Assembly: GCF_900172325.1 (NCBI RefSeq)
Contig: NZ_FWFR01000001.1
Location: 1,876,335-1,940,334, forward strand
Source of the DNA: Oceanibacterium hippocampi
Lineage (GTDB): Bacteria > Pseudomonadota > Alphaproteobacteria > Sneathiellales > Sneathiellaceae
Direction of reading: 5' to 3'
DNA length: 64,000 nucleotides
Below, one piece after another: positions 50,516 to 53,697 of this stretch (positions are counted from its first letter, which is position 1; every line of letters begins with the position of its first letter). The notes under the pieces were generated by a model. That model saw only the letters and a list, made by a program, of their open reading frames with translations, searched no databases and was not told the DNA's origin. Made by a program: the position numbers and the translations under genes.

Positions 50516-50523
50516 AATAAAAA
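50516..50523. repeat. Left 8-bp target-site duplication
   Basis: AATAAAAA immediately before the left inverted repeat; the identical octamer follows the right inverted repeat at 53476-53483. Eight bases is the usual duplication of the IS1595 family. Confidence 0.9.
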
Positions 50524-50547
50524 GGCGATTATATACTTGACGAACCC
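50524..50547. repeat. Left terminal inverted repeat (IRL)
   Basis: Begins GGCGATTATATACTT and matches the reverse complement of 53452-53475 at 21 of 24 positions. Read outward (minus strand) it contains a perfect TATAAT (50528-50533) pointing to the aldehyde dehydrogenase gene, with a weak TCGACC 16 bases upstream of it. Confidence 0.9.
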
Positions 50548-50585
50548 ACGGTCGATCCCCATCTCTAAGGAGAAGGAGTTGACCC

Positions 50586-51512
50586 ATGAGCGTACTATCC
50601 AAGGCATACTTTCACGACGAGGCTGCGGCCTTCGCGAAGCTTGAGGAAATCGTCTGGCCGGATGGCCCTGTCTGCCCTCACTGCGGCGGCATGGAGCGGG
50701 CCTACGACCTGACCAAGACGCGCCTTGGATTGAAGAAGTGCGGTCATTGCCGGAAGCAGTTCACGGTACGGGTGGGCACGGTATTCGAGGCAAGCCACGT
50801 TCCGCTGCACAAGTGGTTCCAGGCGACCTTCCTGATGGTGTCGAGCAAGAAGGGCATCAGCGCCCACCAGCTCCACCGGGTTCTTGAGGTCACGTACAAG
50901 ACGGCGTGGTTCATGGCGCACCGTATTCGCGAGGCGATGCGCTCGGGTGATCTGTCCCCGTTCGGCATCGACGGCGGCGCGGTCGAGGTTGACGAGACGT
51001 TCATCGGCAACGACCGCACCATCAAGCCGAAGGGCCAGAAGAAGGGACGCGGCTTCCATCACAAGCACAAGGTACTGGCGCTGGTTGACCGGAACACCGG
51101 CAAGGCCCGGACGATGGTTGTTGACGATCTCAAGGCCACGACGTTGGCCCCGGTCGTTCGCGAGAACCTTGCCCGCGAAGCACGACTGATGACGGATGAG
51201 GCGTCCTACTACACCAAGGTCGGGCAGGAGTTTGCCGAGCACGGCGTGGTGCATCACAATCGCGGCGAGTATGGCCGTGGCGATGTCTACACAAACACCG
51301 TTGAAGGCTACTTCTCGATCTTCAAGCGCGGCATGAAGGGCGTCTACCAGCACTGCGGCAAGAAGCATCTGCACCGCTACGTGGCCGAGTTCGAGTTCCG
51401 CTACAACGAGCGCGACATCAGCGACGTGGAGCGAGCAGGCGAGGCATTGAAGGGCATCAGCGGCAAGAGGCTGACGTACAACCAACCTTGTGAAACACAA
51501 ATTGCTTCGTGA
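50586..51512 (+). CDS. IS1595-family (ISXO2-like) transposase
   Basis: 308 residues from an ATG with AAGGAGAAGGAG upstream. N-terminal zinc ribbon (C30-PH-C33, C52-GH-C55), then the ISXO2-like domain with D136 (VEVDETF), D204 (LMTDEASYY) and N237 (YTNTVEGYFSIFKRGMKG), matching the DD-N type active site of the family. The reading frame is intact, so the element may still be active. Confidence 0.95.
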   Translation: MSVLSKAYFHDEAAAFAKLEEIVWPDGPVCPHCGGMERAYDLTKTRLGLKKCGHCRKQFTVRVGTVFEASHVPLHKWFQATFLMVSSKKGISAHQLHRVLEVTYKTAWFMAHRIREAMRSGDLSPFGIDGGAVEVDETFIGNDRTIKPKGQKKGRGFHHKHKVLALVDRNTGKARTMVVDDLKATTLAPVVRENLAREARLMTDEASYYTKVGQEFAEHGVVHHNRGEYGRGDVYTNTVEGYFSIFKRGMKGVYQHCGKKHLHRYVAEFEFRYNERDISDVERAGEALKGISGKRLTYNQPCETQIAS

Positions 51513-51515
51513 AGA

Positions 51516-52313
51516 TTAGAGTTTCTTCCTATAATCGAGATACCCCCTTGGGCCGAACGGTTGGGTCGAACCCGACACCGCCACTGAATTGTGGCTAGGC
51601 CCTTGGGGACCCTTCGACAACTTGATATGCCAAATTTTAAAGTGCCGTTTGTCGATAGGGGATTCCTCAGTCAGTGATAGAAGGCACGCTCTCCGACGGA
51701 TATGGTCGGCCATTCTCTCTTTTGGGGAGTTGGCTCCGAGCCGCCCGTTAAGAGACGCACCTATCGCGCCGATAAGGATGTCCGAAATCCAGAAAACTGG
51801 CTCCTCACGATAATCGATATGATCGACCGAGAGGCATGGGGAGCAGTCTTTCCCAAAGCGAGCACGTCCCATTCCGTTAAGGTATTCGTTGAATTTTCCT
51901 AGATCGTGGCGGCTATTGCGGTTTGCGTAGAGATGGCGAATGCGACCACTCTTGCCCATGTTGCGCTTAAAGGCGAAGAGATGCTGGATAACAAATTTGT
52001 TGAATCCAAGTTCACTGTCGCCATCGTTAAAAGTGGCATGATCCGTATCTGATGTCTTGACAACAGCCGCGTGAAAATCAACGAGATGCTCTTTGTTGAA
52101 ATCGAAAAATTGATCTATGAGGCGCTCGTATCGAAGATAATTTCCTCGTCGAATGCGCGTCCATTTTAGTGCGTCTGGGAAATCTCCTTTAGCTGACATG
52201 GTGGCGGCGCGAAGATCTCTCGCGATAGGTGCTTTACAGAGCACACCGCCGATTACCACGTATCGCTCATTAATTGAGCTTTCGTCACTAAATGAAGCGT
52301 AACGGCAAAGCAT
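51516..52313 (-). CDS. DUF3800 domain-containing protein (transposon passenger)
   Basis: 265 residues from ATG 52313 (a TTG three codons earlier is possible). The DUF3800 pattern is present: FSDESSINERYVVIGGVLC at the start (D10, E11), KWTRIRR, LVDFHAAVV, RHLYANRNSRHD in the centre and the acidic SVDHIDYREEPVFWISDILIGAIG near the C-terminus. The family has an RNase H-like fold and is frequent near mobile and defence loci, but its biochemical role is unsettled. The DNA is much more AT-rich than the host. Divergent from the two tiny genes at 52325-52611. Confidence 0.85.
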   Translation of the reverse strand: MLCRYASFSDESSINERYVVIGGVLCKAPIARDLRAATMSAKGDFPDALKWTRIRRGNYLRYERLIDQFFDFNKEHLVDFHAAVVKTSDTDHATFNDGDSELGFNKFVIQHLFAFKRNMGKSGRIRHLYANRNSRHDLGKFNEYLNGMGRARFGKDCSPCLSVDHIDYREEPVFWISDILIGAIGASLNGRLGANSPKERMADHIRRRACLLSLTEESPIDKRHFKIWHIKLSKGPQGPSHNSVAVSGSTQPFGPRGYLDYRKKL

Positions 52314-52324
52314 CGGAGCCAAGG

Positions 52325-52477
52325 ATGAACAGCGACAAACGAGTACCTCAATCCGAAAAATTCAAAGAAGCCGCCCGTGAGGTCGAAGCCGACGATAGCG
52401 AGGCCGGGTTCGAGGAAAAGCTGAAACGGTTGGCGAAGGCTAAGTTGAAACCGAAGAAGGAGGTGCCGGACAAATGA
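52325..52477 (+). CDS. 50-residue charged protein (transposon passenger)
   Basis: Starts at ATG 52325 with GGAG six bases upstream; an in-frame ATG at 52292 would overlap the DUF3800 start. The product (MNSDKRVPQSEKFKEAAREV ... KKEVPDK) is rich in Lys, Glu and Asp with a single predicted amphipathic helix. The type, a short protein opening with NSDKRVPQSEKFKEAARE, seems widespread as an unnamed hypothetical. It sits 11 bases from the divergent DUF3800 gene, and its stop overlaps the next tiny gene. Confidence 0.75.
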   Translation: MNSDKRVPQSEKFKEAAREVEADDSEAGFEEKLKRLAKAKLKPKKEVPDK

Positions 52478-52611
52478 GACGATGGATTCTATTTTCTACG
52501 CCGGTCAACTGGGTTGCGCGGATTGGCGGTTGGATTATTGAGCAACGGTCCAAAGAGGTTCTCAGGATTGCCGGACTTGATGGTGTTGGAGCCAGTTCCA
52601 ACCACCAGTGA
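52474..52611 (+). CDS. 45-residue protein with hydrophobic N-terminus (transposon passenger)
   Basis: The ATG overlaps the stop of the preceding gene (ATGA) and is preceded by a strong AAGGAGG at 52457-52463. The peptide begins MRRWILFSTPVNWVARIGGW, a mostly hydrophobic segment with tryptophans that could associate with a membrane, and ends in a polar tail. The good ribosome site and coupling argue for real expression. The last 50 bases overlap the convergent gene at 52562-52906. Confidence 0.65.
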   Translation: MRRWILFSTPVNWVARIGGWIIEQRSKEVLRIAGLDGVGASSNHQ

Positions 52612-52906
52612 AAACATGTCCCGAGCCTGTGTAGGTCTCGCCAACCTCCAGGATTAAGAATGCGTCATCGCTGACGCTTTCGGTGCTCCCTTCTAACGCC
52701 ATCCGGATTTCTCTCGCCGATTTCTGAGAATTGGCAAAGAACCCAGCTAAACTCGTATCCTTAGATCTAAATGCCAGCAGGTAATCCTTGTTGGATAACC
52801 GCTCTATGACCACCTTGATGCCGGAGAATGCATCCGCTAGTTCAGCCAAGCTGGCGGTTTTGTGGATGGAAACGACGATCAGATAGGTTCTGGGTTCTGG
52901 ACTCAT
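52562..52906 (-). CDS. Small protein of unknown function, possibly SinR/Cas2-fold-like (transposon passenger)
   Basis: 114 residues. RTYLIVVSIHKTASLAELADAF, VIERLSNKDYLLAF, SAREIRMALEG and DDAFLILEVGETYTG form an alternating strand-helix-strand-strand pattern like the small ferredoxin-fold proteins annotated SinR-like or Cas2-like. The resemblance is to the pattern only; key Cas2 residues cannot be claimed, and no CRISPR array is present. AT-richer than the host. Confidence 0.55.
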   Translation of the reverse strand: MSPEPRTYLIVVSIHKTASLAELADAFSGIKVVIERLSNKDYLLAFRSKDTSLAGFFANSQKSAREIRMALEGSTESVSDDAFLILEVGETYTGSGHVFTGGWNWLQHHQVRQS

Positions 52907-52948
52907 TCTCCACCCGATAATGATGAAGTATATGTGTCGCGCCGAGGA

Positions 52949-53284
52949 TCAGGGCACGTCGCCTATCTTTTCGAATGCTACTTGAACGGGCTTGTTCATT
53001 ATCTTGATCTGCTGAGCCGATCCATCAGCGAACGTAGCCGGCCAAACTGCGGATAACTGCAACGATGTTCCCGCAGCAAGTTGATCACCGGTAACGAGTG
53101 TTGCGCCGCCCTGCGGGGCAGTAAGTGTTCCGGACAGGGCCATGTTCCCCCCGGATTCTGTATAGGTGCCGGTGTATCGGCCGTTCGATACATCAACACC
53201 GACGAACATTCCCTTACCAATGTAGACAGCTCCAAATCCCGTACCCGCCGAGCCGAGATATCGGATCGCGTACAAAGCGCTCAT
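52949..53284 (-). CDS. GrlR-like small beta-rich protein (transposon passenger)
   Basis: 111 residues from ATG 53284 with GGAGG four bases upstream; the frame is open further 5' but has no good site. MSALYAIRYLGSAGTGFGAVY, FVGVDVSNGRYTGTYTESGG and LSGTLTAPQGGATLV resemble the glycine-rich strands of GrlR-type proteins (LYAIRF..G.G.G, GxD...YxGTY). GrlR itself is a regulator in attaching-effacing bacteria; here the role is unknown. Confidence 0.6.
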   Translation of the reverse strand: MSALYAIRYLGSAGTGFGAVYIGKGMFVGVDVSNGRYTGTYTESGGNMALSGTLTAPQGGATLVTGDQLAAGTSLQLSAVWPATFADGSAQQIKIMNKPVQVAFEKIGDVP

Positions 53285-53305
53285 GTGACCTCCGGAGAAT
53301 ATGAA

Positions 53306-53470
53306 ATGTGCAAAGAGAAGAACGACGCTCAGACCAAAATCGAACGGCTCATCGCGGCGATGGACCGCCTCGCCCAAACCATAGAGGCGAGCACCGCACA
53401 CGATCACCAAAAGCTCGAACATTGTGACTCGAGCACAACCAAAGAGTCAATGGGTGCGGGAAGTATATAA
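53306..53470 (+). CDS. 54-residue helical protein ending inside the right inverted repeat (transposon passenger)
   Basis: Starts at ATG 53306 with GGAG eight bases upstream, 21 bases from the divergent GrlR-like gene. KEKNDAQTKIERLIAAMDRL and AQTIEASTAHDHQK suggest a helix or short coiled coil. The TAA stop (53468-53470) lies within the right terminal repeat, so the transposon end itself supplies the end of the gene. Confidence 0.6.
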   Translation: MCKEKNDAQTKIERLIAAMDRLAQTIEASTAHDHQKLEHCDSSTTKESMGAGSI

Positions 53471-53475
53471 TCGCC
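53452..53475. repeat. Right terminal inverted repeat (IRR)
   Basis: Ends AAGTATATAATCGCC, the perfect reverse complement of the first 15 bases of the left end; 21 of 24 positions match overall. It also contains an outward TATAAT (53466-53471) and the last codons of the 54-residue gene. Confidence 0.9.
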
Positions 53476-53483
53476 AATAAAAA
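53476..53483. repeat. Right 8-bp target-site duplication
   Basis: AATAAAAA, identical to 50516-50523. It belongs to the T-tract (minus strand) of the rpmG terminator. Confidence 0.9.
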
Positions 53484-53506
53484 AGGCCGCGATGAACGCG
53501 GCCTTT
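53479..53506 (-). terminator. Rho-independent terminator of rpmG
   Basis: On the minus strand, AAAGGCCGCG pairs with CGCGGCCTTT around a TTCAT loop, and the run continues as TTTTTTATT. It lies 24-50 bases after the rpmG stop. The transposon cut the T-tract, and the target duplication restored it. Confidence 0.85.
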
Positions 53507-53529: not shown

Positions 53530-53697
53530 CTACTTGATCTTGGCTTCCTTGAACATCACGTGCTTGCGCGCGACCGGGTCGTATTTCTTGACCTCGAGCT
53601 TCTCGGTCAGAGTCCGAGGATTCTTCTTGGTCACGTAGAAATAGCCGGTGCCGGCACTGCTCACGAGCCTGATCTTCAGCGTGGTTGGCTTGGCCAT
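53530..53697 (-). CDS. rpmG: 50S ribosomal protein L33
   Basis: 55 residues, the normal L33 length: begins [20 protein letters not shown], then [20 protein letters not shown] and the conserved [14 protein letters not shown] end. No zinc-binding cysteines, so it is the C-minus form. It sits in the customary pleD-rpmG neighbourhood, here interrupted by an ALDH gene and the transposon. Confidence 0.96.

Follow-up and report, generated by a model that had tools for sequence, protein, structure and literature searches.

The closest described systems are the transporter IS (tIS) of the IS1595 family, such as ISNha5, which are described as insertion sequences with passenger genes, a transcription regulator for example (Siguier, Gagnevin and Chandler 2009, as cited in PMC11891212, PMC8101967 and PMC3129680). 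The element described here shares with them an IS1595-type transposase with a zinc ribbon, 8-bp duplications and passengers dispensable for transposition, but differs in that it stands in a whole clade with changing cargo resembling defence or toxin-antitoxin genes, a constant small gene and probable terminator targeting. Toxin-antitoxin modules also travel aboard Tn3-family transposons (Lima-Mendez et al. 2020, PMC7157771), where, as here, small PIN, HEPN and other modules of this type are exchanged at a fixed place of the backbone. Tn3 elements, however, have another transposase and a resolvase, and often further cargo, whereas we see a minimal element whose cargo extends to nucleases, methylases and restriction-type proteins. 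As regards target choice, IS1272 recognises a stem-loop and not a sequence (Wan et al. 2017, PMC5678879). IS1272 replaces the stem-loop, whereas the present element leaves the hairpin in place and duplicates the adjoining T-tract. Group IIC introns likewise choose sites immediately downstream of the stems of intrinsic terminators, but are retroelements with an RNA-based mechanism and have neither inverted repeats nor duplications. We give a probability of about 0.85 to the reading that the present element is an IS1595 transporter IS of a cargo-bearing, small-gene-bearing clade.

Anatomy of the element

The window, a stretch of 64,000 nucleotides from Oceanibacterium hippocampi, contains at 50524-53475 a unit of 2,952 bp (2.95 kb) with the layout IRL, transposase, cargo and small gene, IRR. 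Its features and those of the target site are as follows.

50516-50523, no strand: left target duplication AATAAAAA, identical to 53476-53483
50524-50547, plus: IRL GGCGATTATATACTTGACGAACCC, 21/24 identical to IRR; the motif recurs at the ends of relatives
50586-51512, plus: IS1595-family transposase, 308 aa, zinc ribbon and intact D136-D204-E240 (PF12762, PF12760; conserved columns)
51516-52322, minus: main passenger, DUF3800-type, PADLOC PDC-M04A, predicted RNase HII-like fold (profiles, model); start TTG 52322 or ATG 52313
52325-52477, plus: conserved 50-aa small protein MNSDKRVPQSEKFKEAAREVEADDSEAGFEEKLKRLAKAKLKPKKEVPDK, probably transposon backbone; relatives in 72/78 elements
52562-52906, minus: 114-aa ORF, passenger, uncertain gene; 0 Pfam families, weak match to PADLOC HEC-05 (E=0.0026)
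52949-53284, minus: 111-aa ORF, passenger; homologues in 5/384 other alphaproteobacterial genomes (best E=4e-14, 40% identity)
53306-53470, plus: 54-aa short ORF reaching into the right end, doubtful gene; from the ORF list only, no family
53452-53475, minus: IRR GGCGATTATATACTTCCCGCACCC (repeat search; comparison with IRL)
53476-53483, no strand: right target duplication AATAAAAA, the opening 8 nt of the T-tract in the rpmG terminator (minus strand)
53484-53504, minus: hairpin from rpmG's intrinsic terminator, AGGCCGCG-TTCAT-CGCGGCCT, directly next to the duplication, -15.7 kcal/mol
53530-53697, minus: rpmG, ribosomal protein L33, host gene with the targeted terminator (Pfam Ribosomal_L33, E=4e-17)

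A repeat search of the window returned 25-nt arms (50524-50548 and 53451-53475) that are 88% complementary, with the first 15 of the 24 terminal positions matching perfectly, and the octamers on both sides are exact. The transposase matches DDE_Tnp_IS1595 (PF12762) with E=5e-36 and 124.6 bits, the cut-off being 27, and Zn_ribbon_IS1595 (PF12760) with E=3e-13 and 49.8 bits; its zinc cysteines C30/C33/C52/C55 and acidic residues D136/D204/E240 are about invariant among 69 aligned relatives. An N-terminal zinc ribbon is typical of all IS1595 groups but IS1016. With DDE domain, zinc ribbon, terminal inverted repeats and 8-bp duplications all present, the element is by its sequence a member of the IS1595 family with an intact DDE transposase, and, as in a tIS, genes with no part in transposition lie within the IS ends: the passenger at 51516-52322 is inside the repeats, and 77 analogous elements exist. 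The earlier note had proposed a complete passenger-carrying IS1595/ISXO2 element with a perfect target duplication, a true right end at 53452-53475 and cargo differing from the host in composition; the ends, octamers and transposase bear this out, as does a G+C content of 68% in the flanks, 61% in the transposase and 51% in the cargo. The unit is a complete element of this family, probably still intact.

A second copy with other 8-bp repeats had been named as further support. The exact unit was seen once: a whole-genome search found a single copy in its own genome, and a DNA match to the element occurred in 0/25 genomes of the same family. Since no identical second copy turned up there, mobility is supported instead by relatives of the same architecture, present in 77 other places. 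Scanned against Rfam, the 48-56 kb region yielded no match near any gathering score.

Related elements

Both ends could be located in 78 elements, 68 of which have exact 8-bp duplications; they are 1.86-4.3 kb long, with a cargo tail of 0.83-3.3 kb downstream of the transposase. Many of these loci lie in draft or metagenome-assembled genomes, and elements not closable where contigs end or ends diverge are not counted. Every one of the 78 carries cargo, a bare IS being found in 0/78, and the G+C content of the cargo is below that of the transposase in 78/78 and below that of the flanks in 77/78. At the window locus as in the relatives, octamers enclose the unit as a whole. A chance origin of the element boundaries is ruled out, because the same GGCGATTATATAC ends and 8-bp duplications bound relatives in dozens of genomes.

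It could be argued that the transposase belongs to an ordinary IS of about 1 kb beside an unrelated island, the right end and octamers being coincidental or the remnant of a second IS in a composite arrangement. Outgroup IS1595 members at 30-34% identity (ISKpn3, ISAcr1 and a Phyllobacterium copy) are indeed bare and 1.03-1.19 kb long, and just one large passenger is well supported in the window. We nevertheless regard this explanation as extremely improbable, given the exact octamers and the 21/24 repeats, the same long architecture in the 77 relatives, and a unit that has neither a right-end repeat directly behind the transposase nor a second transposase. The longer unit is therefore retained, and its relatives very likely form a widespread and little described clade whose members consist of IRL, transposase, variable cargo with a constant small gene, and IRR.

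The target site

The target of the window element is the T-tract of the rpmG terminator, the stem of which ends directly at the right duplication. The sister genus has a terminator of this kind, unbroken, behind rpmG; genome L174 has GGCCGC-loop-GCGGCCTTTTTTATTGG after rpmG, with TTTTTATT present once. The unbroken junction predicted for relatives is thus seen on the rpmG side, with the single octamer, and only this side can be compared because ALDH is not the neighbour in the sister genus.

Across the clade, 15 of 75 scored sites are terminator T-tracts directly abutting a hairpin, with 0.08 expected, and in all 15 the stem ends directly at the duplication. About four fifths of the elements lie outside any clear terminator, and terminator targeting is patchy over the tree (10 changes). 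Octamers in which one strand has 7 T or more are far commoner among the duplications than at control positions. This would also suit a mere preference for T-rich 8-mers, which G+C-rich genomes have mainly in terminators, with the terminator association as its by-product. Control runs of at least 7 T do abut hairpins above average (14/96); however, given at least 7 T, the hairpin is abutted on 13/17 sides at the elements (Fisher p=7e-7), and this, together with the stems ending at the duplication in 15/15 terminator sites, makes the by-product explanation unlikely, although it keeps some weight. A preference for the T-tract at the terminator foot, strong in part of the clade, is probable from these site comparisons.

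The conserved small protein

The gene at 52325-52477 probably belongs to the transposon itself, to judge from its distribution: flanking ORFs have no relatives of the small protein, save a neighbouring element and matches at chance level, and genome-wide its genes adjoin IS1595 transposases. Its subtypes change 5 times on the transposase tree vs 23 when shuffled, and type-1 genes lie on the transposase strand in 40/40 cases while cargo orientation varies; for type-2 proteins, distances do not follow those of the transposase (Mantel 170/2000). Amid changing cargo, the small protein keeps to the transposase in subtype and strand, and for this reason we read it, a two-helix protein, most probably as an accessory factor of the transposon, either a regulator or helper of transposition or a keeper of the cargo. 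The earlier note took all six passengers to be unrelated to transposition, which probably does not hold for this gene, conserved as it is whatever the cargo.

Alternatively, the small protein could be a constant antidote to variable toxins, pairing with each cargo effector as its antitoxin or immunity protein. Many cargo families resemble toxin-antitoxin genes, and in most elements the small gene overlaps or abuts a cargo ORF, co-directionally or divergently; in the window element some 11 bp separate its start from the DUF3800-type gene, which is divergent. A single protein paired with PIN, DUF3800, AlbA_2, methylase and further cargo has, to our knowledge, no precedent, and neither the strand constancy of type-1 genes nor the agreement of subtypes with the transposase tree is what a cargo partner would show. 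Moreover, a 1.87-kb plasmid element (L192) keeps the small gene as its sole annotated gene besides the transposase. We thus consider the antidote role doubtful and prefer the accessory factor.

The annotated records seen name the small protein only 'hypothetical'.

Passenger genes

The main passenger matches the PADLOC candidate PDC-M04A over nearly the full profile (E=1e-21, positions 5-229 of 232), PDC entries being defence candidates, and Pfam DUF3800 below threshold (E=0.008, 17.3 bits, cut-off 21), which proteins of other clade elements pass. The partner gene of PDC-M04 is, by contrast, not recognised, as the other two window cargo proteins scanned gave no match. Passengers of two other elements (L026 and L028) are 28-31% identical to it, and the N-terminal D11-E12 is kept in three relatives. 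A structural model of moderate confidence (pLDDT 63) has as its top 24 structure matches exclusively RNase HII/H2/HIII (TM 0.35-0.45), and the protein, with this predicted RNase HII-like fold, is most likely a nuclease of defence or toxin-antitoxin type. Searches for its relatives gave none in viral contigs, a single 25% match in plasmids and, itself aside, one in 385 alphaproteobacterial genomes.

The earlier note counted six passenger genes, which is too many. One large DUF3800-type gene and the conserved small gene are well supported and the 111-aa ORF has homologues; the 114-aa ORF has a weak match only, and the other short ORFs are unsupported. A sequence search against solved structures gave nothing significant for the 111-aa and 114-aa ORFs. 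An assignment by eye of the 111-aa ORF as GrlR-like was dropped for want of Pfam support.

Among 147 cargo ORFs of the clade, we found DUF3800 (10), PIN (9, plus 2 PIN_10), SocA/Panacea (5), DUF1828 (4), and AlbA_2, GmrSD, Mrr, methylase and HEPN (2 each), as well as BstA, PD-T4-2 and others, with restriction enzymes and methyltransferases represented. A PADLOC 'pAgo' match in two relatives was rejected as Argonaute, Pfam assigning AlbA_2 and a RecG-C-type domain. Control ORFs from the flanks (138, length-matched) belong to housekeeping families, with just 8 scattered PADLOC families. The word 'defence-like' covers only the recognisable part, since Pfam leaves the majority of cargo ORFs unmatched. 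Cargo turnover is directly visible: the elements with the nearest transposases (L022, L019, L076 and L130; about 68-77% identity) carry different cargo, and relatives of the window passenger accompany other transposases. That the cargo is random host DNA, caught via a distant end and kept without selection for function, would agree with such exchange between close relatives and with the many ORFs outside known families; it is very improbable, however, in view of the recurrent families slanted towards defence and toxin-antitoxin systems, absent from the flanking-gene controls, and of a G+C content consistently under both transposase and host. As judged by family matches, the cargo is instead varied, interchangeable, rich in defence and toxin-antitoxin-like families and unlike the flanking genes.

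Discussion

Transporter IS as a kind are known; what sets this clade apart is the swappable defence-like cargo, the probable second backbone gene and the probable terminator targeting. The literature searched, with most subscription journals outside it, contained no report of IS1595 elements with terminator targets or with defence cargo, and none was found of a conserved small protein in such elements. We propose that the transposase binds the GGCGATTATATA ends and that the unit would be inserted by 8-bp staggered joins, favouring the T-tract at the foot of an intrinsic terminator. The duplication would keep the hairpin and T-run whole beside the element, and therefore no gene would be disturbed and the upstream gene would still terminate. 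The cargo, here a DUF3800-type protein with a predicted RNase HII-like fold, may pay for the ride. On a wider reading, to which we give about even odds, the clade consists of minimal transposons specialised for moving interchangeable anti-phage or toxin-antitoxin genes, with a near-universal, unannotated backbone protein of 40-60 aa, landing at the terminator foot through recognition of hairpin and T-tract and harmless to genes and termination.

If this class reading is true, few self-contained carriers of defence-like genes would be smaller than these elements of 2-4 kb, and the cargo slot, since most of its ORFs match no Pfam family, would be a convenient hunting place for undescribed systems. 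The small protein, constant across very different cargo, would be a second transposon gene, and the rule of the T-tract at the terminator foot would account for the harmless spread of such elements.

The window element and its insertion site

The IS1595-family element spans 50524-53475 (2,952 bp) and lies beside rpmG.

Features of the element and its neighbour
50586-51512, transposase, IS1595 DDE domain and IS1595 zinc ribbon, both far over cut-off
51516-52322, minus strand, DUF3800-type passenger (PADLOC PDC-M04A)
52325-52477, small protein of 50 aa, with relatives in elements of otherwise unrelated cargo
52562-52906, cargo ORF, almost without support
52949-53284, cargo ORF, homologues in five other genomes
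53530-53697, minus strand, rpmG

An unprompted repeat search recovered inverted arms at 50524-50548 and 53451-53475 (88% complementarity), and the 24-bp terminal repeats named by an earlier note were found as described, with 21 of 24 bp matched and the first 15 identical. The flanking octamer that it had reported, AATAAAAA, indeed lies at 50516-50523 and is repeated at 53476-53483, while the transposase, claimed to be intact, possesses the zinc cysteines together with D136, D204 and E240, all about invariant among 69 relatives. The element is present as a single copy in its own genome (4.83-Mb assembly, 18 contigs), the only species of Oceanibacterium in our genome sample.

On the minus strand, rpmG is followed 3′ by AGGCCGCG-TTCAT-CGCGGCCT and then TTTTTATT, and the duplication corresponds exactly to the first 8 nt of the rpmG terminator T-tract. 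Hairpins resembling intrinsic terminators are found 3′ of rpmG in nearly all of 20 genomes of the sister genus; in one genome (L174) the rpmG tract reads GGCCGC-loop-GCGGCCTTTTTTATTGG, with TTTTTATT present once. As the T-tract was duplicated, hairpin and T-run still adjoin rpmG, so that, judging from the sequence, termination is probably retained despite the insertion.

The protein encoded at 51516-52322 falls under the Pfam cut-off for DUF3800, matches PADLOC PDC-M04A over nearly its full length (E=1e-21) and is 28-31% identical to passengers of two related elements (L028 and L026). The top 24 PDB matches to its predicted structure (pLDDT 63) are all RNase HII, H2 or HIII (best E=1.3e-4, TM about 0.4), and D11-E12, close to its N-terminus, is conserved. 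RNase HII carries a DE motif at the corresponding N-terminal place. Our best guess is a putative nuclease effector. All four elements with the nearest transposases bear cargo differing from that of the window, and cargo has therefore been exchanged.

A clade of cargo-bearing elements

IS1595 elements that carry passengers have been described under the name transporter IS (Siguier et al., 2009, as cited in PMC11891212, PMC3129680 and PMC8101967). A transposase scan of genome contigs gave 440 loci, the best 80 of which, together with the window copy, yielded 47 elements closed at both ends. A set of 385 evenly sampled alphaproteobacterial genomes contained 45 transposase places in 35 genomes and added 28 closed elements; three more reside on plasmids pMOC1 (Methylobacterium oryzae CBMB20), p1318-1 (Roseomonas marmotae) and P1 (Pseudosulfitobacter pseudonitzschiae). 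Relatives were selected by transposase similarity from a sample comprising partly draft and metagenome-assembled contigs, and our statements therefore hold for this clade only.

Exact 8-bp duplications flank 68 of these 78 elements, which measure 1,857-4,306 bp, with 834-3,291 bp between transposase and right end. None of the 78 is bare, in a search that permitted bare forms; bare IS1595 relatives occur at 30-34% identity (ISKpn3, 1,031 bp; ISAcr1, 1,080 bp; a Phyllobacterium copy, 1,190 bp). Another distant IS1595 relative (36%) with differing ends (CCCTATTATCC), on a Ponticoccus alexandrii plasmid (L195:3284-5057), has about 600 bp without annotated gene past its transposase and is possibly intermediate between bare and cargo-bearing forms. 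At another locus (L139; G103:C85, about 86-90 kb), a closely spaced pair of complete members of the clade points in opposite orientations, each with its own 8-bp duplication, a type-2 small gene (see below) and different cargo.

Cargo is lower in G+C than the transposase in 78/78 elements and than the flanks in 77/78. Most of the cargo ORFs belong to no Pfam family; in the 147 scanned (minimum length 85 aa), the commonest families at E ≤0.001 were DUF3800 (10), PIN (9, plus 2 PIN_10), SocA/Panacea (5) and DUF1828 (4), followed at two each by AlbA_2 with HATPase_c_4, GmrSD, Mrr, N6/N4 methylase and HEPN; others include NYN, RelA/SpoT, Cas2, KilA-N and HNH. PADLOC added BstA (best E=9e-116), PD-T4-2_A, PDC-M04A, PDC-S33 and many methylase models. 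Its pAgo label for L042:7041-8612 and L046:6947-8512 is misleading, these proteins being AlbA_2 (Schlafen) plus RecG-C-type. In 138 length-matched ORFs beside the same loci, the 25 Pfam families listed include housekeeping ones (e.g., CoA transferase, ATP synthase, tryptophan synthase, ribosomal L27), and PADLOC gave only eight single matches, several of them probably look-alikes of housekeeping proteins; the comparison concerns families found, not per-protein totals, and hence carries no single enrichment figure. A two-gene cargo recurs at L019:6948-8143, L191:1713-3114 and L194:5427-6805, where a protein of ~250-290 aa without known family accompanies a PIN/VapC-type gene and the small gene comes immediately after them; the first protein could be an antitoxin or co-factor that has escaped recognition.

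Terminators as target sites

A duplication was scored as terminator-type if one strand held five or more T and the duplication abutted a hairpin at least as stable as -8 kcal/mol. By this rule 15 of 75 elements qualified, against an expectation of 0.08 calculated over every position of their flanks. In each of the 15 the stem runs right up to the duplication, the hairpin lying left of the element in nine and right in six; L022 is a probable sixteenth case, its bulged stem being missed by the rule. T-richness alone does not appear to account for this association, because among sides with at least 7 T, 13/17 observed and 14/96 control sides abut a hairpin (Fisher p=7e-7, p-values being guides only since related elements are not independent observations). 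Terminator targeting is scattered unevenly over the tree (10 changes), and is therefore clear in part of the clade only. Structure-directed targeting is known from IS1272, which replaces a stem-loop (PMC5678879), whereas here the terminator T-tract is duplicated.

A small protein as a proposed constant second gene

Iterated profile searches of six-frame ORFs found the small protein in 72 of the 78 elements; the elements counted had also served for building the profiles, and a flank control and a genome survey act as checks on this. Type 1 (40 elements; Q..KFK.AARE...DE.E.AF...L..IAK.KP) always lies on the transposase strand (40/40), and type 2 (32 elements; RD.VLRRML.TPPKPHK plus basic tail) mostly on the opposite one. 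The nearest cargo ORF abuts or overlaps the small gene in most elements, in varying orientation. Among 11,587 flanking ORFs, type 1 had no match, and type 2 matched only the neighbouring element of a close pair and three ORFs at chance level. In the genome survey, which queried 318 genomes (some also used in profile building) with the small-protein profiles alone, an IS1595 transposase lay within 1.5 kb at 37 of 52 fetched loci; two more fell inside elements already mapped (L132, L135), and some of the remainder, with a lone right end nearby, resemble decayed copies. Three loci (L263, L272, L274) combine the small gene with a lone right-end repeat close by and no transposase, and are apparently decayed elements.

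The division into two types agrees with the transposase tree, on which it takes 5 changes as against 23 in shuffles. Type-1 distances correlate with transposase distances (r=0.44, 0/2000 permutations), and type-2 distances do not track them (170/2000). The shortest plasmid element (L192:4432-6300, 1,869 bp, Pseudosulfitobacter plasmid P1) is near-minimal, and the small gene is the sole one annotated besides its transposase; this transposase also matched many other Pseudosulfitobacter plasmid records.

Swappable toxin-antitoxin modules in a transposon backbone are already known from Tn3 elements (PMC7157771); the combination of passenger IS1595, constant second gene and terminator T-tract duplication was not found in the literature searched, whose coverage was incomplete. 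The model of the small protein (pLDDT 72) shows a hairpin of two helices plus a tail. We read the gene as part of the transposon backbone, where it might help transposition, regulate it or tend the cargo.
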